Shown here: in pieces, positions 6,241 through 46,957 of the stretch | Layout: each line of letters starts with the position of its first letter | Numbering within the stretch: position 1 is the first letter of the stretch | Source: Candidatus Nomurabacteria bacterium | GTDB taxonomy: Bacteria > Patescibacteriota > Minisyncoccia > Phycocordibacterales > UBA9973 | Direction of reading: 5' to 3' | NCBI GenBank assembly: GCA_026395895.1 | Contig: JAPLXV010000022.1 | Span: 1-52,934, forward strand | DNA: 52,934 nt | Notes under the pieces: generated by a model | Database searches by the model: none | The model's input: only the letters and a program-made list of their open reading frames with translations | Told to the model about the DNA's origin: nothing | Translations under genes and position numbers: made by a program

Positions 6241-7722
6241 ATGGGAAAGAAATATTACCCGACAATTGGGCTTGAAATACACGCTGAGTTGAAGACAAAC
6301 ACGAAAATGTTTTGTAGTTGCAAGAATGACCCTGATGAAAAAAAACCGAATGTAAATATTTGTCCTGTTTGCATGGCGCATCCGGGAGCTTTGCCAGTCA
6401 TTAATAAAAAAGCTATCGAAAATGTTATCAAAGTTGGTTTGGCGATAGAAGGGAAAATTGCTGATTTTACAGAATTTGATAGAAAAAATTATTTTTATCC
6501 AGATATACCGAAAGGTTATCAGATTTCTCAATATAAATATCCGATAGTTTCCGGGGGGCATTTGGCAGATTTTGACGTCACTCGAGTGCATTTAGAAGAA
6601 GATACGGCTAATAATAAACATTTCCCCGAAGCCCAGCTTAGGGGAGTTGGAGTTTCCCCTAAGCTGGGCTTCGGGGAAGAAGGATACTCTTTAATCGATT
6701 TCAATCGCGCTGGGGTTCCTTTGATGGAACTCGTGACAGAGCCGGTGACTTTCGAAGATGCTGAAAAAGCTGCCAAGAGCGCTTCTTCGTTTGCAAAAGA
6801 ACTCCAGTTAATACTTTGGTATCTTGGAGTGTCCGAAGCGAATATGGAAAAAGGAGAAATGAGAGTGGAGGCAAATATTTCGGTTTCTGAAAATAAGAAA
6901 AAATTAGGTACGAAAGTGGAAGTAAAAAATTTGAACTCTTTTAAGAGTGTAGAAAAAGCCATCAAATTTGAATTAGATAGAATGATAAAACTTTCTGAGG
7001 ATGGTAAAGATCAAGAAATAGTACAAGAAACTCGAGGTTGGGATGAAGGAGGACAAAAGACATTTTCACAGAGAAAAAAAGAATCTAGTCATGACTACAG
7101 ATATTTTCCAGAACCAGATTTACCAAAAATGAAACTTCACGAAGCTTTTGATTTGGAAAAAATGAAAAAAGAATTACCAGAATTGCCTCAGGCAAAAAGA
7201 TTGAGATATAAAAAAGATTTTGGGATTAAAGATGAAGACATAGAAAGTTATATTAATGATTTTGAGCTAGGAAAATGGTTTGAAGAAATTGCGATATTTT
7301 TAAAAAATCCTGAGGAAGTTAAAATAGCTTCAAACTATATTACTTCTGATTATTTGGGAATCAAAAAAACGCAGACGGAAGCAAGGCTTCCGTCTGCGGG
7401 AAACTTTGCAGAACTTATAAATTTGGTTGCAGATAATAAAATTTCTTCGCGTGTGGCGAAAGACATTTTAGCTATGATTGTTTTGAAAGATGAATCTCCG
7501 CTTAAAATCGCGACAGAAAAAAGTTTATTGCAGAAAAACGACGAGAAAGAAGTAAAAACTATCGTAGAGAAAATAGTTAAAGAAAATCCAGAAGTTGTGG
7601 CTACTTATAAGGCTGGTAAAGAAAACGCCATAATGTCCTTGGTTGGGAAAGTGATAAAAGAAAGTAAAGGTAGTGCCAATCCACAAATTGTTATCAAAAT
7701 GTTGAAGGATTTGCTAAAATAG
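6241..7722 (+). CDS. gatB: Asp-tRNA(Asn)/Glu-tRNA(Gln) amidotransferase subunit B
   Basis: YYPTIGLEIHAELKTNTKMFC, CPVCMAHPGALPVIN, SLIDFNRAGVPLMELVTEP, SSHDYRYFPEPDLP. Confidence 0.97.
   Translation: MGKKYYPTIGLEIHAELKTNTKMFCSCKNDPDEKKPNVNICPVCMAHPGALPVINKKAIENVIKVGLAIEGKIADFTEFDRKNYFYPDIPKGYQISQYKYPIVSGGHLADFDVTRVHLEEDTANNKHFPEAQLRGVGVSPKLGFGEEGYSLIDFNRAGVPLMELVTEPVTFEDAEKAAKSASSFAKELQLILWYLGVSEANMEKGEMRVEANISVSENKKKLGTKVEVKNLNSFKSVEKAIKFELDRMIKLSEDGKDQEIVQETRGWDEGGQKTFSQRKKESSHDYRYFPEPDLPKMKLHEAFDLEKMKKELPELPQAKRLRYKKDFGIKDEDIESYINDFELGKWFEEIAIFLKNPEEVKIASNYITSDYLGIKKTQTEARLPSAGNFAELINLVADNKISSRVAKDILAMIVLKDESPLKIATEKSLLQKNDEKEVKTIVEKIVKENPEVVATYKAGKENAIMSLVGKVIKESKGSANPQIVIKMLKDLLK
6622..6678. 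repeat. In-frame palindromic element inside gatB (family F1)
   Basis: Perfect 24-bp arms ttccccgaagcccagcttagggga / tcccctaagctgggcttcggggaa with 9-nt spacer; exactly 19 codons encoding FPEAQLRGVGVSPKLGFGE. Confidence 0.95.
7370..7398. repeat. In-frame palindrome inside gatB
   Basis: cgcagacggaagc-aag-gcttccgtctgcg, perfect 13-bp arms, encoding TQTEARLPSAG. Confidence 0.85.
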
Positions 7723-14104: not shown

Positions 14105-15073
14105 ATGAACTTCAATTTAGATGAACTAAAAAAGAATCACAACACGAGCTACTTGGCCAGTATTTTGGAGCGCTTGGATAAGGAAGAAATTGAAGTAAGA
14201 GAAATGCTTACGAAAGATGATTCTTTAAAAGAAATGGTAGATGGGGAATTAAAATCTATTCAGGAGCAAAGAGAGGCGACAGAAAAACAAATTCAAGATA
14301 TTTTGGACAAAGATGTTCAAGAAGAAGAAATGGCTAATGAAGTAGTGCTGGAAGTAAGAGCCGGAGCCGGAGGAGACGAAGCTTCTCTTTTTGCTTGGGA
14401 GTTAGCGCATATGTATGAATTATTTTCTACCGTCAAAGGTTGGCAGTGGAAAACAAATTACGAATCAAAAAGTGAATTGGGTGGATACAAAGAAGCCAGT
14501 TTTGAAATAAAAGGAAAAGATATTTATAATCAATTACGTTATGAAACTGGCGTGCATCGAGTGCAACGTATTCCGGCTACGGAAAAAAATGGCCGAGTGC
14601 ATACTTCCACCGCCTCAGTGGCTGTGCTTCCAATTCGCAAAAAAGTTTTATTTGAAATCAATCCTGCTGATTTAGAAATGGAATATTCTCGTTCTGGTGG
14701 AAAGGGCGGACAGAATGTAAATAAAGTGGAAACAGCTGTGCGATTAATTCATAAACCAACAGGCCTGGATGTGCGTTCTACTAACGAAAGAAGCCAGCTG
14801 GCTAATCGCGAAAAGGCATTGATGATTTTGACTGCCAAACTTCAGCAACTAAAAGAAGAAGAGGAAGCAAAAAAATATGCTGGTGTTCGCAAAGATCAAA
14901 TTGGAACAGGTGATCGTTCCGAAAAAATTCGCACCTATAATTTTTCACAAGATCGCGTAACCGACCATCGCATTAAAAAATCTTGGCACAATTTGCCAAA
15001 AATAATGGCAGGATATATTGAAGAAATAGTTGAAGCATTGCAGTCTGGTGAGACGGGAGATGAAGAGGAATAA
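14105..15073 (+). CDS. prfA: Peptide chain release factor 1
   Basis: [91 protein letters not shown]. Confidence 0.95.
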
Positions 15074-15120
15074 AATTTAGTATTACTTGCTAGGTTTTAA
15101 TGTTGTAGTATAATTTATAT

Positions 15121-16555: not shown

Positions 16556-16579
16556 AAAATTTAAGTCTATTAACAAAAT

Positions 16580-16679
16580 AAAAAATCTTGGCACAATTTG
16601 CCCAAAATAATGACGGGGTATATAGAAGAAATTGTGGACGCTCTTCAATCTGGCGAGACGGGAGAGGAAGAGGAATAAA
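16580..16679 (+). pseudogene. Second, diverged copy of the prfA 3' end (remnant)
   Basis: 100-bp block matches 14975-15074 with 14 mismatches by hand alignment, mostly synonymous; would encode [32 protein letters not shown] plus TAA. Confidence 0.93.
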
Positions 16680-22256: not shown

Positions 22257-23096
22257 ATGGCAAGTACTAAAGAAAAAATTAAAAATATTGCATTATTTGA
22301 AGGAAATAAAGTCCGTCGTGTTTGGTATGAAAACAAATGGTTTTTTGTTATTTCCGATATTGTTTTTGTGTTAACTGAATCAAATGATGTAAAACAATAT
22401 GTTAAAAAAATGAGAGTAAGAGATCCAGAGCTTTCTGTCAAGTGGGGTACAATTTGTACCCCACTTCCAGTTGTTTCAAGGGACGGGAAACAGAGAGAAG
22501 AATTAACGGCTGATTTGGAGGATATTTTTCGTATTATTCAATCCATCCCATCCCCAAAAGCTGAACCATTCAAACAATGGCTTGCGAAAGTCGGAAAGGA
22601 AAGAGTAGATGAAATCCAAAATCCAGAACTTGCCATGGAACGAATGAAAAGTTTATATGAACAAAAAGGTTATCCCAATGATTGGGTTGCAAAAAGGATG
22701 CGTGGTATCGCTGTTCGTAATACCTTGACGGATGAATGGGATAAGCGGGGACTTAAAAAAGGAATTGAGTACGCAATTTTGACTAATGAGATAATACAAG
22801 GAACTTTTGATATGAAAGTGGATGATTATAAAAAACATAAAAATCTTTTTGTCCAACATAATTTGCGCGACCATATGGGAGATATTGAGCTTATATTGAC
22901 CATGCTTGCCGAAGCAACAACAACCAAGCTTTCTGTGGACCGTGATTCAAAAGGTTTTAATAAGTTACATAATGATGCAAAAGAAGGAGGAGAAATAGCA
23001 GGAGAAACACGCAGAAAAATAGAAAATCGTTCTGGTAAAAAAATATCAACAAAAAATAATTTTTTAAATATTAAAAATAAGAAGAGATTAAAATAA
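22257..23096 (+). CDS. BRO-N/antirepressor- and DinD-like DNA-binding protein
   Basis: FEGNKVRRVWYENKWFFVISDIVFVLTES, IFRIIQSIPSPKAEPFKQWLAKVGKERVDEIQNPELAMERMKSLYEQKGYPNDWVAKRMRGIAVRNTLTDEW. Confidence 0.88.
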   Translation: MASTKEKIKNIALFEGNKVRRVWYENKWFFVISDIVFVLTESNDVKQYVKKMRVRDPELSVKWGTICTPLPVVSRDGKQREELTADLEDIFRIIQSIPSPKAEPFKQWLAKVGKERVDEIQNPELAMERMKSLYEQKGYPNDWVAKRMRGIAVRNTLTDEWDKRGLKKGIEYAILTNEIIQGTFDMKVDDYKKHKNLFVQHNLRDHMGDIELILTMLAEATTTKLSVDRDSKGFNKLHNDAKEGGEIAGETRRKIENRSGKKISTKNNFLNIKNKKRLK

Positions 23097-23115: not shown

Positions 23116-24066
23116 ATGGCATCAACCAAAGAAATTAAAAGAAGAATAAAGAGTGTGAAGAGCACAAAGAAAATCACTAAAGCGATGGAACTTGTGGCTG
23201 CTTCCAAAATGAAGAGAGCAGTCTCTTCAACTCTGGCTTCACGTTTGTATGCGGAATATTCTTGGGAAGTTTTAACTTCCATTGCTAAAAATACAGAAAA
23301 GATAACTCATCCACTTTTTGTAGAACGTGAAGTAAAAAATATTTTACTTCTTCTCATTACTTCCAATCGTGGACTCTGCGGTGCATATAATACGCAGGTT
23401 ATTAAAAAAGTTTTGGCTTTTCTTCAAAATTCCCAAAAGACGGTCTTTGGGGAAGAATCCAAAAGACCGTCTTTTGGGATTGATATTGTGGCTATCGGCA
23501 AAAAAGGAGACGTAATGATGCGTCGGGTAGGCAAAAATATTATTGCTAGTTTTTTTGAATTGCCAAGCAATGTTTCTCTTTTTGATATTATTCCAATATC
23601 TGAATTGGCGGTCAATGAATACAATCTTTTAAATTATGACAAAGTTTTGGTTGCTTATACTGATTTTGTTTCTGCTCTTTCCCAAAAACCAAATATTAAA
23701 CAAATCATTCCAGTTTCTAAAACAGATTTGAAAGAATTAATTGAAAAAGTTGCGGAAGCCGGTCTTCCGCGAGAAGAACGCGGAAGACCGGCTTCCGCAG
23801 AGAAACCAGTAGATTATTTATTCGAAGGAGATCAAGAAGCACTTATTGGTTCATTAGCAGAAAAAATAACTCGTATGCAAATATATCAAATGTTTCTTGA
23901 ATCTAACGCTTCCGAACAATCTTCTCGAATGGTCGCTATGAAGAATGCTTCAGATGCTGCAGGAGAAATGATAGATGATTTAACATTAGTATTTAACAAA
24001 GCTCGCCAGAGTAATATTACCAGAGAAATTTCGGAAATAAGTGCTGGTATGGCGAGTGTGAATTAG
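23116..24066 (+). CDS. atpG: ATP synthase F1 subunit gamma
   Basis: KEIKRRIKSVKSTKKITKAMELVAASKMKRA, LITSNRGLCGAYNTQV, C-term SRMVAMKNASDAAGEMIDDLTLVFNKARQSNITREISEISAG. Confidence 0.97.
   Translation: MASTKEIKRRIKSVKSTKKITKAMELVAASKMKRAVSSTLASRLYAEYSWEVLTSIAKNTEKITHPLFVEREVKNILLLLITSNRGLCGAYNTQVIKKVLAFLQNSQKTVFGEESKRPSFGIDIVAIGKKGDVMMRRVGKNIIASFFELPSNVSLFDIIPISELAVNEYNLLNYDKVLVAYTDFVSALSQKPNIKQIIPVSKTDLKELIEKVAEAGLPREERGRPASAEKPVDYLFEGDQEALIGSLAEKITRMQIYQMFLESNASEQSSRMVAMKNASDAAGEMIDDLTLVFNKARQSNITREISEISAGMASVN
23431..23479. repeat. In-frame palindromic element inside atpG (family F3)
   Basis: tcccaaaagacggtcttt (23431-23448)/aaagaccgtcttttggga (23462-23479), perfect 18 bp; the right arm ccaaaagaccgtcttttgg is itself palindromic; encodes SQKTVFGEESKRPSFG. 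Confidence 0.93.
23751..23799. repeat. In-frame palindromic element inside atpG (family F2)
   Basis: tgcggaagccggtcttccgcg / cgcggaagaccggcttccgca, perfect 21-bp arms, 7-nt spacer; each arm is gcggaag...cttccgc; encodes AEAGLPREERGRPASA. Confidence 0.96.
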
Positions 24067-24074
24067 AGCGGGAA

Positions 24075-24112
24075 AAGGCCTTGCCTTAAAAGGAGCCCAA
24101 AGGCAAGGCCTT
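24075..24112. repeat. Intergenic hairpin upstream of atpD (family F7)
   Basis: aaggccttgcctt / aaggcaaggcctt, perfect 13-bp arms; near-identical to 25532-25567. Confidence 0.9.
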
Positions 24113-25515: not shown

Positions 25516-25531
25516 AAATTTAAAATAGCTA

Positions 25532-25567
25532 GACCTTGCCTTAAAGGGAACCCAAAGGCAAGGCCTT
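25532..25567. repeat. Intergenic hairpin downstream of atpD (family F7)
   Basis: gaccttgccttaaagggaacccaaaggcaaggcctt; 33/36 identical to the copy upstream of atpD. Confidence 0.88.
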
Positions 25568-25593
25568 GAGGAGAAAATTTTAGAAATAAATTT

Positions 25594-26038: not shown

Positions 26039-26749
26039 ATGAGTAAATTTTATGTAGTGGCGACGCCAATAGGGAATATGGGAGACATCACTCTTCGGGC
26101 TATTGAGACGCTCAAGGAGGTGGATTTGATATTGTGCGAAGATACTCGAGAAACAAAAAAAATTTTACAGAAATATAATATAAATACTCCGACCATGAGT
26201 TATCATAGTCAAAGTAAATTAAATAAAGTAGATAAAATTTTTGCATTATTAGAGGAAGGAAAAAATTTAGCTTTAGTTTCGGATGCTGGTACTCCCACTA
26301 TTTCTGATCCAGGGGCAATGCTAATCGCAAAAATCAAAGAAGTTTCCCCGAAGCCCAGCTTAGGGGAATTTCCCCTAAGCTGGGCTTCGAGGATAGAGGT
26401 TATACCCATTCCCGGTGCTACAGCTGTCATCGCTGCACTTTCGGCTTCGGGATTACCAACACATGAATTTACTTTTCTTGGTTTTCTTCCGCACAAAAAA
26501 GGGAGAGAAACTTTATTTAAAGAAATTGCCGAATCAAAACGTACCATGGTTTTTTATGAATCTCCACATCGTATTTTGAAAACATTAAAATCCCTACAAA
26601 AATTTTGTCCCAACAAAAAAGTCTGTTTGGCTCGTGAAATTACTAAAATTTATGAAGAATTCAAAACCGGTTCTCCATCTGAACTCCTAGAATACCTAAC
26701 CCAAAATCCTATTCACCAAAAAGGGGAGTTTACGGTGCTAGTTTCCTAA
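26039..26749 (+). CDS. rsmI: 16S rRNA (cytidine(1402)-2'-O)-methyltransferase
   Basis: FYVVATPIGNMGDITLRAIETLKEVDLILCEDTRETKKIL, LVSDAGTPTISDPGAMLI, VIPIPGATAVIAALSASGLP. Confidence 0.97.
   Translation: MSKFYVVATPIGNMGDITLRAIETLKEVDLILCEDTRETKKILQKYNINTPTMSYHSQSKLNKVDKIFALLEEGKNLALVSDAGTPTISDPGAMLIAKIKEVSPKPSLGEFPLSWASRIEVIPIPGATAVIAALSASGLPTHEFTFLGFLPHKKGRETLFKEIAESKRTMVFYESPHRILKTLKSLQKFCPNKKVCLAREITKIYEEFKTGSPSELLEYLTQNPIHQKGEFTVLVS
26344..26394. repeat. In-frame palindromic element inside rsmI (family F1, same as gatB)
   Basis: ttccccgaagcccagcttagggga-att-tcccctaagctgggcttcgaggat; left arm identical to the gatB arm; encodes SPKPSLGEFPLSWASRI. Confidence 0.95.
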
Positions 26750-35560: not shown

Positions 35561-36413
35561 TTTTATTTGCATTAAACCACTTTATTTCTTTATCTCTTTT
35601 GAACCAAGTCATTTGGCGTTTGGTGTATTTTATGGTTTCTTTCACCACTTTTTCATAAGTAGGGGAATTGTATTCGAAACCAAACTCTTTTAGTCTTTTT
35701 TCTGAAACCCCACTTTTTTTTAATTTTTTTATTTCATTTAACAAACCATCATTGAACATTTTTTTGACTCTTTTTTCTACTTTCTTTTTTAATTCGTCAG
35801 GTGGAAGATATAAACCAATTTTTATAAAATTACATAGTGACACACTTTCTGCCATGACAGAGTTTGTGTCACTATGTAATTTGGGAACCTTGCCAAGGGT
35901 TTTGGCTATTTCTATAGCTCTGATTAATCTGACTTTATTATTTATTTCATTTTTATTTTTTATATCTTTTGCGCGTCTAGGGTCTAATTTTTTCAAATAC
36001 TCAAATAATGCTATCGCTGATTTTGAGTATAGAGACTTACGGAGTTTTGCATTTGGTGGAACTTCTGGGAAAACCGTTCCTTTAGTAATGGCATCAATAT
36101 AAAATCCCGTGCCTCCACAAATAATCGGAACCTTACTCCTTTTTATAATCTCAGCTATAGCGTAGATTGCTTTTTTTTGATATTCGGCTACAGTAAATTT
36201 TTTCTTTGGACTTACAACATCTATTAAATGATGAGGAATGCCCTTCATTTCTTTTTTACTAATCTTGCCTGTTCCAATATTTAATCCTTTATAAACCTGT
36301 CTGGAATCGGCAGAAATAATTTCACCATTAATTTTTTTAGCGATTTTAACAGCCAAACTGCTTTTACCAGTAGCTGTAGAGCCCAGTATTACTAGCATTT
36401 TTTTTCTTAACAT
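35550..36413 (-). CDS. miaA: tRNA dimethylallyltransferase
   Basis: LVILGSTATGKSSLAVKIAKKINGEIISADSRQVYKGLNIGTGKI, HHLIDVVSP, ICGGTGFYIDAI, YTKRQMTWFKRD. Confidence 0.96.
   Translation of the reverse strand: MLRKKMLVILGSTATGKSSLAVKIAKKINGEIISADSRQVYKGLNIGTGKISKKEMKGIPHHLIDVVSPKKKFTVAEYQKKAIYAIAEIIKRSKVPIICGGTGFYIDAITKGTVFPEVPPNAKLRKSLYSKSAIALFEYLKKLDPRRAKDIKNKNEINNKVRLIRAIEIAKTLGKVPKLHSDTNSVMAESVSLCNFIKIGLYLPPDELKKKVEKRVKKMFNDGLLNEIKKLKKSGVSEKRLKEFGFEYNSPTYEKVVKETIKYTKRQMTWFKRDKEIKWFNANKITL
35827..35882. repeat. In-frame palindromic element inside miaA
   Basis: aaattacatagtgacac / gtgtcactatgtaattt, perfect 17-bp arms plus inner ctg...cag pairing; encodes KLHSDTNSVMAESVSLCNF on the minus strand. 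Confidence 0.93.
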
Positions 36414-40408: not shown

Positions 40409-42673
40409 TTATTTTATTTTGTTTAATTTATCGGGTCGATAATTTGGACACTTATTATTACTGCATCTTTCTCCTATGGTTTTTGTTCCTTCCATCATTA
40501 AAGAACCACATTTCTCGCATATTTTACCGGTAGGTTTAGCTTTGATGGCGAATTTGCAATCTGGATAATTTGAACAGGAATAAAAAATTCCAAATCGTCC
40601 ACGTCGTTCACTAATATCGCCTTTTTTACAAAGAGGACAAATAACTCCAGTCCTTTTTTTAGCTTCTTGAGCTTCGTCTTTTTTTATAAATTTACATTTT
40701 GGATAACGAGAGCAGGAAATAAAAGTTCCAGAACCGTCGCGTCTTTGGCGTACAATAAGTTTTCCTCCATATACTTTCTTCTTTTTTTCGCCTGCCTGCG
40801 CAGGCAGGCCACATTCTGGACACATTTCTCCAGTTTCTTTTGGACCTTCTAATTCTACGCCGTCCAATTTTAAAGCCCCATCGCAATCTGGATATCTGGA
40901 ACAAGAATAAAATTTACCTCCGCGAGAAAGTTTTATAATCATCTTACCTCCGCACTTTGGACACTTTATATTTTCTGGTGCATCGCCTAAATTGGTCGCT
41001 TTTTCTAATTTTTCTTTTGATTTCACATCTTTGGAAAATGGTCCATAGAAATCTTTTAAAGTTTTCTGATATTCACGTTCACCTCGAGAAATTTCATCTA
41101 GTTCGTCTTCCATTTCTGCGGTAAATGTATCAGAAATATAATTAGCAAAATGTTTTTCCAAAAAATCAGATACCACTTCACCAACATCAGTCGGGAAAAG
41201 AGTTTTGCCTTCTTTCTTAACGTATTCTCGATCTTCTAGAGTTTTCATAATAGAGGCATAAGTAGATGGTCTACCGATATCTCTAGCTTCAAGTTCTTTA
41301 ATCAAACCTGCTTCACTATATCTATTTGGCGGTTCGGTAAATTTTTCTTCTTTAATAAGATTTAGTAATTTTAATTTTTCTCCGACTTTTACTTCTGGTA
41401 ATTCTATATCTTCACCTACGCTATCTTTATATACTTTTAACCATCCAGAGAAAAGAACACGAGAACCAGTAGCAGAAAAATCAGGGAATTTAAATTCTGC
41501 GGAAGACCGGCTTCCGCGTACTGGCGGAAGCCGGTCTTCCGCAAGGACATTTGCGCTTATTTTTGTCTTTAATAATCTTGCATCTGTCATTTGGGATGAA
41601 ACAACCCGTTCCCAAATTAATTTGTAAAGTTTTTGTTGTTCATCGGTACCAGCTCCTAAATTTTCTATGTGAGTTGGACGAATAGCTTCATGCGCTTCTT
41701 GAGCATTTTTTGATTTAGCTTTATAAATTCTTGGTTGAGCATATTCTTTTCCGTATTTTTTTTCAATTAAAGAAACAATTTGCGTTTGAGCAGCTGCAGA
41801 TAAATTAGTACTGTCTGTTCGCATATAGGTAATATGTCCAGCTTCGTAAAGTTTTTGCGCTATTTGCATTGTTCTGGAAGGGGAATAACCAAGTCGTGAA
41901 CTGGCGGTTTGTTGTAAAGTAGAAGTAGTGAAAGGTGCGCGAGGAACTCGTTTTTGTTCTGATTCTTTTACATCTTTAACTAACCAATTTCCTTTTTTAC
42001 CTTCTTCAAGTATTTTTTCAACTAGTTTTTCGTCTCTTGGTTCCTCTGAACAATAAAGAGTTAATTTTCCCTTTTTAATTGTTTCAAAAAGACCCAATAG
42101 TTTCCAATATTTTTCCGGTACGAAAGCACGAATTTCTCTTTCCCGTTCCATTATAATACGAAGCGCAGGGGATTGAACTCGTCCAGCCGAAAGCCCATAA
42201 CGAACCTTTTTCCAAATGAGCCCAGAAAGATCATAACCAACTAGTCTATCAAGAACTCGTCTTGCTTCTTGAGCCCTTACAAGTTTCATGTCAATTTCTT
42301 CTGGATTTTTTAATGCTTCTTTTACTGCTTCTTCGGTTATTTCATAAAATCTAACTCTTTTGACTGGAGCTTTTGTTTTTTTTATTAATTCTTCAATATG
42401 CCAAGCAATCGCTTCTCCTTCGCGATCAGGGTCTGTAGCTAATATTATTTCGTCGGCTTTCTGGGCAAGATTTTGTAATTCATGTACAACTTTTTCTTTA
42501 CCTTTTGAAATTTCATATTTTGGTATAAATCCGCCTTCTATATCTATGGCTTCTTTATTTGATTTTGGCAAGTCGCGAATATGTCCAATAGAAGCACGCA
42601 CTGTGTATGCGCCTTCTAAATATTTTTCAATAGTCTTTGCTTTTGATGGTGATTCAACAATTAATAATTTCAT
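40409..42673 (-). CDS. topA: DNA topoisomerase I
   Basis: MKLLIVESPSKAKTIEKYL, ATDPDREGEAIAWHI, HITYMRTDSTNLS, several C-terminal CxxC zinc ribbons. Confidence 0.97.
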   Translation of the reverse strand: MKLLIVESPSKAKTIEKYLEGAYTVRASIGHIRDLPKSNKEAIDIEGGFIPKYEISKGKEKVVHELQNLAQKADEIILATDPDREGEAIAWHIEELIKKTKAPVKRVRFYEITEEAVKEALKNPEEIDMKLVRAQEARRVLDRLVGYDLSGLIWKKVRYGLSAGRVQSPALRIIMEREREIRAFVPEKYWKLLGLFETIKKGKLTLYCSEEPRDEKLVEKILEEGKKGNWLVKDVKESEQKRVPRAPFTTSTLQQTASSRLGYSPSRTMQIAQKLYEAGHITYMRTDSTNLSAAAQTQIVSLIEKKYGKEYAQPRIYKAKSKNAQEAHEAIRPTHIENLGAGTDEQQKLYKLIWERVVSSQMTDARLLKTKISANVLAEDRLPPVRGSRSSAEFKFPDFSATGSRVLFSGWLKVYKDSVGEDIELPEVKVGEKLKLLNLIKEEKFTEPPNRYSEAGLIKELEARDIGRPSTYASIMKTLEDREYVKKEGKTLFPTDVGEVVSDFLEKHFANYISDTFTAEMEDELDEISRGEREYQKTLKDFYGPFSKDVKSKEKLEKATNLGDAPENIKCPKCGGKMIIKLSRGGKFYSCSRYPDCDGALKLDGVELEGPKETGEMCPECGLPAQAGEKKKKVYGGKLIVRQRRDGSGTFISCSRYPKCKFIKKDEAQEAKKRTGVICPLCKKGDISERRGRFGIFYSCSNYPDCKFAIKAKPTGKICEKCGSLMMEGTKTIGERCSNNKCPNYRPDKLNKIK
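40790..40809. repeat. Perfect 20-bp palindrome inside a topA zinc-ribbon segment
   Basis: gcctgcctgcgcaggcaggc, encoding GLPAQAG directly after CPEC. Confidence 0.85.
41498..41543. repeat. In-frame palindromic element inside topA (family F2, same arm as atpG)
   Basis: tgcggaagaccggcttccgc-gtactg-gcggaagccggtcttccgca, perfect 20-bp arms. Confidence 0.95.
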
Positions 42674-45877: not shown

Positions 45878-46957
45878 ATGCAAAATTTCTGGAAAAAATT
45901 AAAGAAACCATTTTTCTGTTTAGCGCCGATGTCGGACGTTACTGATATTGCTTTTCGTCGCATCTTAGCGAAATACAGCAAAAATAGAGAGAACAAAGAC
46001 AGGGTTGTTTTTTGGACAGAATTTGTGGCCACTGATGGTTTATGTAATAAACTGGCCAAGAAAAAACTTTCCCATATATTAAAATACTCCGAAGCCGAAA
46101 GGCCAATCGTGGCTCAAGTTTTTGGCGCCAATCCTGAAAACATGAAAAAGGCTTGTAGTTATATTGCCAGTCTAGGTTTTGATGGCATAGATATAAATAT
46201 GGGTTGTCCTGATAAATCAGTGGTTGCTCAAGGAGCTGGGTCAGCACTGATAAAAACTCCGCAACTTGCCAGAAAAATTATACAAGCGGCTCATGTGGGA
46301 ATAAAATCAGCAGGAACGCATATTCCAGTGTCAGTTAAAACAAGAGTTGGTTTTTCTAAAGAAGAAATAGATACTTGGATACCAGAATTATTAAAAGAAG
46401 ATATTTCCGCTTTGACGATTCATTTGCGTACTGCTAAAGAATTGTCGCTCGTTCCAGCAAATTGGAATTATATTAAAAAAATAAAAGAACTTATAAAAAA
46501 AAGTGGAAAAGATATATTGCTCATTGGTAATGGTGATGTCGCAGATATTGATGACGCTAGGAAGAAGTATAAAGATTTCGGTTGTGATGGAATAATGATA
46601 GGTAGGGGAGTTTTTGGGAATCCATTTTTCTTTGCATTTCAAAAGCCAGGCTTTAGGAATTTAGAAAAGCCTGGCTTTGGAAAACAAAAAAATTTAGACC
46701 CCTCCTCAATCCTCCCCTTCGCAGGGGAGGAAGTAAAAGAAAAGTTAGAAATTCTCATAGAACACACCCAACTTTTTGATAAAGAACTTGCAAAACCTAA
46801 ACATAAAAGTTTTGCTGTAATGAAAAAACATTTCAAAGCGTATGTAAATGATTTTCCGGGGGCAAAAGAATTACGCGCAAAGTTAATGGGAACAGAAAAT
46901 TCAAAAGAAGTGGAAAAGATAATACGAAGTTTCCTGAAATTGACAAACTCTGATTAG
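45878..46957 (+). CDS. tRNA-dihydrouridine synthase
   Basis: CLAPMSDVTDIAFRRIL, DGIDINMGCPDKSVVAQGAGSALIKTPQLARKII, VSVKTRVGF, LTIHLRTAKE, IGNGDVADIDDA, CDGIMIGRGVFGNPFFF. Confidence 0.95.
   Translation: MQNFWKKLKKPFFCLAPMSDVTDIAFRRILAKYSKNRENKDRVVFWTEFVATDGLCNKLAKKKLSHILKYSEAERPIVAQVFGANPENMKKACSYIASLGFDGIDINMGCPDKSVVAQGAGSALIKTPQLARKIIQAAHVGIKSAGTHIPVSVKTRVGFSKEEIDTWIPELLKEDISALTIHLRTAKELSLVPANWNYIKKIKELIKKSGKDILLIGNGDVADIDDARKKYKDFGCDGIMIGRGVFGNPFFFAFQKPGFRNLEKPGFGKQKNLDPSSILPFAGEEVKEKLEILIEHTQLFDKELAKPKHKSFAVMKKHFKAYVNDFPGAKELRAKLMGTENSKEVEKIIRSFLKLTNSD
46642..46678. repeat. In-frame palindromic element inside dus (family F6)
   Basis: aaagccaggcttt / aaagcctggcttt; perfect 13-bp arms, each an odd-length palindrome differing only in the central base; encodes QKPGFRNLEKPGFG. 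Confidence 0.92.
46711..46730. repeat. Second in-frame hairpin inside dus
   Basis: cctcccc-ttcgca-ggggagg, encoding part of DPSSILPFAGEEV. Confidence 0.75.

Follow-up and report, generated by a model that had tools for sequence, protein, structure and literature searches.

Repetitive extragenic palindromic (REP) sequences are short hairpins whose cleavage by TnpA-REP is biochemically supported, with GTAG being important for cleavage (PMC8266576). Rickettsia and Wolbachia have in-frame palindromes (PMC2229807). Intragenic GTAG/CGTC REPs were reported from Opitutus terrae, R. conorii and Xanthomonas recB; their in-frame dimers encode 20-30 residues, and two Xanthomonas species have different REPs at roughly the same position of recB (PMC3733652). 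Here, a palindrome at positions 6622-6678 of contig JAPLXV010000022.1 (assembly GCA_026395895.1) from a Candidatus Nomurabacteria bacterium (Patescibacteriota) is compared with these systems. The window, i.e., the whole stretch of DNA analyzed, comprises the 52,934 nucleotides of this contig, and the palindrome lies within gatB, the gene for subunit B of the Asp/Glu-tRNA amidotransferase. The sequence comparisons suggest that this repeat is, with good probability, a non-autonomous mobile hairpin of the REP/REPIN (paired REP) type, most likely moved in trans by Y1 (HUH) transposases of the IS200/RAYT-like (REP-associated tyrosine transposase) group and kept as a coding insert.

The initial annotation of this DNA had reported a perfect 24-bp inverted repeat of exactly 19 gatB codons, and the coordinates, arms and reading phase were all borne out. 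An inverted-repeat scan returned two arms (6622-6645 and 6655-6678) of 24 nt each, which are 100% complementary and separated by a 9-nt loop. The repeat begins in phase 0 of the open reading frame (ORF) 6241-7722 and is translated as FPEAQLRGVGVSPKLGFGE. The view that such a repeat is not expected by chance also held, with a chance expectation within the window of about 3e-8 and with no GC-rich palindrome at the threshold used in first-order Markov shuffles of all surveyed stretches. Beyond what had been annotated, the arms were found to be hairpins themselves, a single 21-nt arm unit having the form CCCC-g-AAGC-CCA-GCTT-a-GGGG, and the repeat turned out to be one copy of a dispersed family, termed family A. 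The RNA of the whole palindrome is predicted to fold with -54.6 kcal/mol (z -7.8). No Rfam match was obtained at the element; as the only known RNA families in the window were five tRNAs, a known RNA family was rejected as the identity of the repeat.

A search of the assembly (672 kb in 35 contigs; genome G000 in the following) yielded 39 matches at about 20 places. Exact copies of the 21-bp unit number 22 in G000, seven in G028, six in G003 and none in 77 other congeners, and a reversed-pattern control gave none. Family A usually takes the form of a 51-bp inverted dimer, TTCCCCGAAGCCCAGCTTAGGGGAAACTCCCCTAAGCTGGGCTTCGGGGAA; in gatB, a spacer with 6 additional nt brings the copy to 57 bp. Solo units are mostly intergenic. 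Dimers inside ORFs are translated as FPEAQLRG.SPKLGFGE or SPKPSLGE.PLSWASGK, which are the two stop-free frames per strand. Since 51 bp correspond to 17 codons and four of the six frames are free of stops, an element that lands in a gene can be retained as a coding insert. Among 85,488 species, the exact unit was found only in Candidatus Nomurabacteria nzgw486, in a metagenome-assembled genome (MAG) titled Burkholderiales and in one Rhodospirillaceae contig. In the public Burkholderiales-titled MAG, the unit occurs in loci L232 and L237 (JAMPXW010000001.1 and JAMPXW010000004.1); the title is probably wrong, the MAG probably grouping in this Patescibacteria genus. The viral contigs searched did not contain the unit, and viral carriage was rejected. 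On contig C14 of G000 (L054:3426-9044), five solo units occur within 5.6 kb, three of them adjoining a TATCCACAGA-like or TTTCCACAGA-like motif.

That the palindrome is an in-frame insertion in the loop between HLEEDTA and SLIDFNRAG, as had been proposed, is supported by an alignment of GatB from 28 genomes of the genus, G000 included. Between NKH and YSLIDF, the loop consists of 3-4 residues (DRGD, DRGN, FDS, FVD) in 16 genomes, holds a palindromic insert in six (G000, G028, G033, G010, G034, G019) and is longer without being clearly palindromic in the other six, so that its length varies. The same loop sequence in other phyla, which had been named as the observation that would speak against an insertion, is absent from the solved GatB sequences of other phyla. 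G028, the closest relative, contains the palindrome units of G000 with a different spacer, whereas the inserts of G033 (a GACGTCGGACGTC pair), G010, G034 and G019 are mutually different palindromes unrelated to the one of G000. With the loop left out of the GatB tree, six changes are needed to account for the palindromic state; since the fork between G000 and G028 is poorly resolved, their inserts may go back to one shared event. Empty and differently filled sites are also found in other genes. The rsmI site contains family A in G000 and a family C palindrome in G003, the lepA loop contains family A-type dimers in G000 and G028 and an unrelated dimer in G001, and the two inserts in rsmH of G000 are both missing in G028 and G001. 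Net length gains are often slightly below the length of the palindrome, and the borders are therefore inexact. Inspection of the gatB, lepA and rsmH junctions by eye revealed no clear target-site duplication. Because transposition of the IS200/IS605 type leaves none, this absence is uninformative.

Family A is only one of several palindrome families in this genome. A survey of 334 kb of the G000 assembly gave 27 GC-rich palindromes scoring at least 14, 20 of them inside ORFs whose frame stays open (rsmI, lepA, rsmH, atpG, topA and others), and none in shuffles. Their cores differ (AAAAGACGGTCTTT, GCGGAAGCCGGTCTTCCGC, AGACGTCGGACGTC, GAGGGTAACCCT and, at a lower threshold, AAGGACAGTCCTT), and the elements are about 36-57 bp long. 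Most families share the plan of a short hairpin present twice, in inverted orientation, with a short spacer. A hairpin with the sequence CCCCTCTCCTTARTAAGGAGAGGGG is common in the survey loci L044, L045, L052 and L056, both in and between genes.

G000 encodes five Y1_Tnp proteins. At long-repeat settings, their genes showed little association with palindromes, a result that was reversed by a scan for hairpins with shorter stems that included control ORFs. Many Y1_Tnp genes of the congeners have a hairpin just 5′ of the start codon, often another just 3′ of the stop codon and sometimes one in frame inside the gene. In the 60 nt preceding the start codon, a hairpin was present for 30 of 52 Y1_Tnp genes and for 11 of the 290 control ORFs (Fisher p 4e-20); when 60 nt on either flank were counted, the numbers were 33 of 52 and 30 of 290. 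The HUH motif is present in 51 of the 52 proteins. Six genomes without Y1_Tnp contained no in-ORF palindrome in 266 kb, where 6-9 would be expected from the other genomes (sampled stretches, kinship ignored).

The hairpin motifs broadly track the transposase tree, and the members of one clade (approximate likelihood ratio support, SH-aLRT, of 98) can be related to the repeats in gatB. In two genomes the unit itself matches: the hairpin of L207 (G019), CCCACAGGTCCGACCTGTGGG, is the unit of the gatB insert of G019, and the hairpin of L204 (G010), CCATATGTCTGACATATGG, lies few bases from the unit CCATATGTCCGACATCGGG in the gatB insert of G010. In two more, the match concerns the core. L190 (G003) has the family A core in two hairpins, AAGC-CCA-GCTT at 119 nt upstream of the gene and AAGC-CGG-GCTT within it, and is the only Y1 gene near an exact family A unit, namely the upstream hairpin. 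L013 (G000) shares the AAGC/GCTT core through its three family D hairpins (AAGC-AAG-GCTT), which are three of the six family D copies in the 334 kb; a further one is located in gatB at 7370-7398. With the Pfam model Y1_Tnp, L010 scores 41.6, and L013 and L207 are at the cut-off (22.7 and 23.2 of 23). At L189 (G004, contig C2), one Y1 transposase gene is preceded by a repeated TAGCAAGAACCGTTCTTGCTA and directly followed by a variant of it, which together form a local array.

A mobile hairpin of the REP/REPIN type would account for these observations as follows. The element, two inverted copies of the 21-nt unit, would have entered a gatB loop that tolerates insertions and would be translated within GatB. 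Single-strand transposases of the Y1 (HUH) type, belonging to the IS200/RAYT-like group, would recognize the hairpin and bring solo units and dimers to new sites, either by copying or by moving them, with each transposase clade presumably recognizing its own hairpin. Copies would persist as coding inserts where the reading frame stays open and the loop accepts them. Several points weigh against this explanation. About 40% of the Y1 genes lack a hairpin in the 60 nt to both sides, and in G000 none of them has an exact family A unit at its borders; L013, the member of the clade in this genome, has family D with the same core. G028 contains family A, yet neither of its two detected transposases falls in that clade, and for the palindromic gatB inserts of G033 and G034 no matching transposase hairpin was found. 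The comparison of genomes with and without Y1_Tnp ignores phylogeny and rests on samples, and the species-specific hairpins at 7370-7398, which vary at constant protein length, are not explained by simple insertion. Finally, no movement of hairpins was observed; we infer mobility, as we do catalysis by the transposase, the direction of transfer and a neutral or nearly neutral insert.

The elements have the same lifestyle as those of Rickettsia and Wolbachia, being in frame, in conserved proteins and in several families per genome (PMC2229807, PMC3733652), and could likewise be selfish coding palindromes without a dedicated transposase, propagated by a mechanism that is unknown or has died out, in which case the Y1 genes would be no more than another target. 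That some Y1 genes hold an in-frame copy implies that they are also targets. However, Y1 genes have hairpins at their 5′ and 3′ borders far more often than other genes do, and the hairpin unit follows the transposase clade, whereas the CGTC repeats border no transposase gene (PMC3733652). We therefore regard this possibility as unlikely. A selected signal in coding regions, such as a regulatory hairpin, a pausing site or an uptake signal acting as RNA or DNA, would be in line with the very stable RNA hairpin predicted for the gatB palindrome. This is hardly credible given that other species have a different sequence or nothing at the gatB site, that the element has no Rfam match, that the target genes are unrelated, and that conservation of hairpin and position regardless of transposase content was not seen.

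Mutation in place, in which template switching (quasi-palindrome correction) perfects imperfect hairpins without any mobile element, has to be weighed together with the second gatB hairpin at 7370-7398. There, protein length is constant in most species, and several have differing hairpins centered on the same base. The stem comprises 13 bp in G000 and G025, with paired differences between the two, at least nine pairs in G003 and seven in G034, and mean pairing at this center is 4.58 of 9 compared to 1.3-3.9 at neighboring centers. The common center, the constant length and the paired changes of G000 and G025 are what template switching would produce, and it may contribute at this site. It fails for the dozens of near-identical dispersed copies, for the net length gains at gatB, rsmI and rsmH and for the species-specific families; as sole cause of the 6622-6678 element it is thus refuted, and as a general explanation it appears very improbable. 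An old insert that was subsequently corrected, converted or replaced could also explain the second site. Because its hairpins differ between species without a change in protein length, the transposase system may overwrite coding sequence in a conversion-like manner and not only insert. The extended proposal that, in several species, one RAYT-like transposase lineage repeatedly and with site preference placed its changing hairpins in one and the same loop of GatB, with such overwriting, is put forward tentatively and as rather doubtful.

The features of the window are compiled in Table 1. The dimer in the dus-like gene probably belongs with the window examples of this palindrome style. Near-identical intergenic dimers with a AAGGCCTTGCCTT core flank atpD on both sides. 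The ATP synthase operon contains, between atpA and atpG, an ORF of 279 aa (22257-23096) that starts with MASTKE, the first residues of atpG; we take it to resemble a phage-type BRO-N/antirepressor protein. The two copies of a direct repeat of 101 nt (14974-15074 and 16579-16679, 86% identical) are separated by 1.6 kb.

Table 1. Palindromic elements in the window and the genes containing or adjoining them.
Feature	Position	Strand	Remarks
gatB, Asp/Glu-tRNA amidotransferase subunit B, host gene	6241..7722	+	493-aa ORF; matches solved GatB chains 3al0, 3h0l, 2df4
Palindromic element, family A dimer	6622..6678	.	57 bp = 19 codons in gatB frame; empty site in relatives
Left hairpin unit TTCCCCGAAGCCCAGCTTAGGGGA	6622..6645	+	unit present 22x in genome
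Loop between arms	6646..6654	.	spacer between 21-nt units 11 nt here, 5 nt in most copies
Right hairpin unit	6655..6678	-	left unit in inverted copy
Second gatB hairpin, family D (CGCAGACGGAAGC-AAG-GCTTCCGTCTGCG)	7370..7398	.	no length change compared to homologues
Family C dimer (AAAAGACGGTCTTT core) in atpG ORF 23116-24066	23431..23479	.	in frame; about 10 aa longer than most aligned relatives
Palindromic dimer GCGGAAGCCGGTCTTCCGC in atpG	23751..23799	.	in frame
Intergenic palindromic dimer AAGGCCTTGCCTT, upstream of atpD	24075..24112	.	second copy 25531-25573, downstream of atpD
Family A dimer in rsmI-like ORF 26039-26749	26345..26393	.	in frame; at this site, other species have a short sequence or a different palindrome
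Imperfect palindrome in miaA-like ORF (minus strand)	35827..35882	.	membership uncertain
Palindromic dimer GCGGAAGACCGGCTTCCGC in topA ORF (minus strand)	41498..41543	.	in frame
Palindromic dimer AAAAGCCAGGCTTT in dus-like ORF 45878-46957	46637..46683	.	in frame

The cited literature does not establish by what mechanism coding palindromes of the Rickettsia type spread, and the same phenomenon is now seen in a distant, highly reduced lineage. A streamlined genome evidently tolerates mobile DNA inside genes for translation, ATP synthase and topoisomerase, and the different inserts in one loop represent natural experiments on protein tolerance. Since the genes of the candidate enzymes are bordered by matching hairpins, the mechanism is directly testable in vitro. 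A literature search, with most subscription journals outside its reach, found no report of in-frame palindromes of this sort in Patescibacteria.

Compared to REP sequences, including bacterial interspersed mosaic elements (BIMEs) and REPINs, with their RAYTs (TnpA-REP), the elements likewise consist of short hairpin units, often as inverted dimers, in multiple families per genus, and a Y1 HUH transposase gene is bordered by matching hairpins, in the present case for this hairpin style in general (30/52 vs. 11/290). Several units resemble the group 3 REPs of S. maltophilia, a perfect stem with a 3-nt loop (PMC8266576). A REP is a hairpin unit of 20-40 nt in many copies; the 21-nt unit occurs in 22 copies with many inverted dimers, which is fewer than in classic REP families. 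GTAG at the foot of the hairpin is not found in the flanks of family A, and the hairpin flanking transposase gene L175 of G001 shows GTAG/CTAC. The transposases resemble RAYTs, but with 40-47 bits against the NCBIfam model NF047646 (RAYT; cut-off 80) they fall outside the curated family. In contrast to REPs, which are mostly intergenic, many copies lie inside genes, and the host belongs to the Patescibacteria.

Like the Rickettsia and Wolbachia palindromic elements (RPE and WPE), the elements are coding palindromes inserted in frame in genes of conserved proteins (gatB, rsmI, lepA, rsmH, atpG, topA) of a reduced genome. With about 36-57 bp they are shorter than RPEs (105-146 bp; PMC2229807), the CGTC tag of RPE-4 and RPE-6 is absent from family A, and the CGTC repeats of RPE-4/RPE-6 have no associated transposase gene (PMC3733652), whereas the genomes studied here have Y1 genes bordered by similar hairpins. 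Perfect inverted repeats also occur in translated genes of Nematomorpha mitochondria; there, both arms encode conserved protein residues, and the abstract describes no mobile family (PMC6649704). In-frame dimers and differing repeats at about one site are shared with the intragenic REPs (PMC3733652), but here no fewer than three genes (gatB, rsmI, lepA) show such recurrence, and gatB by itself accounts for four or more unrelated palindromes. Taken together, the elements are best explained as variations on the known REP and RPE themes, distinguished by the lack of a GTAG or CGTC tag, by their Patescibacteria host and by their recurrence in one loop.
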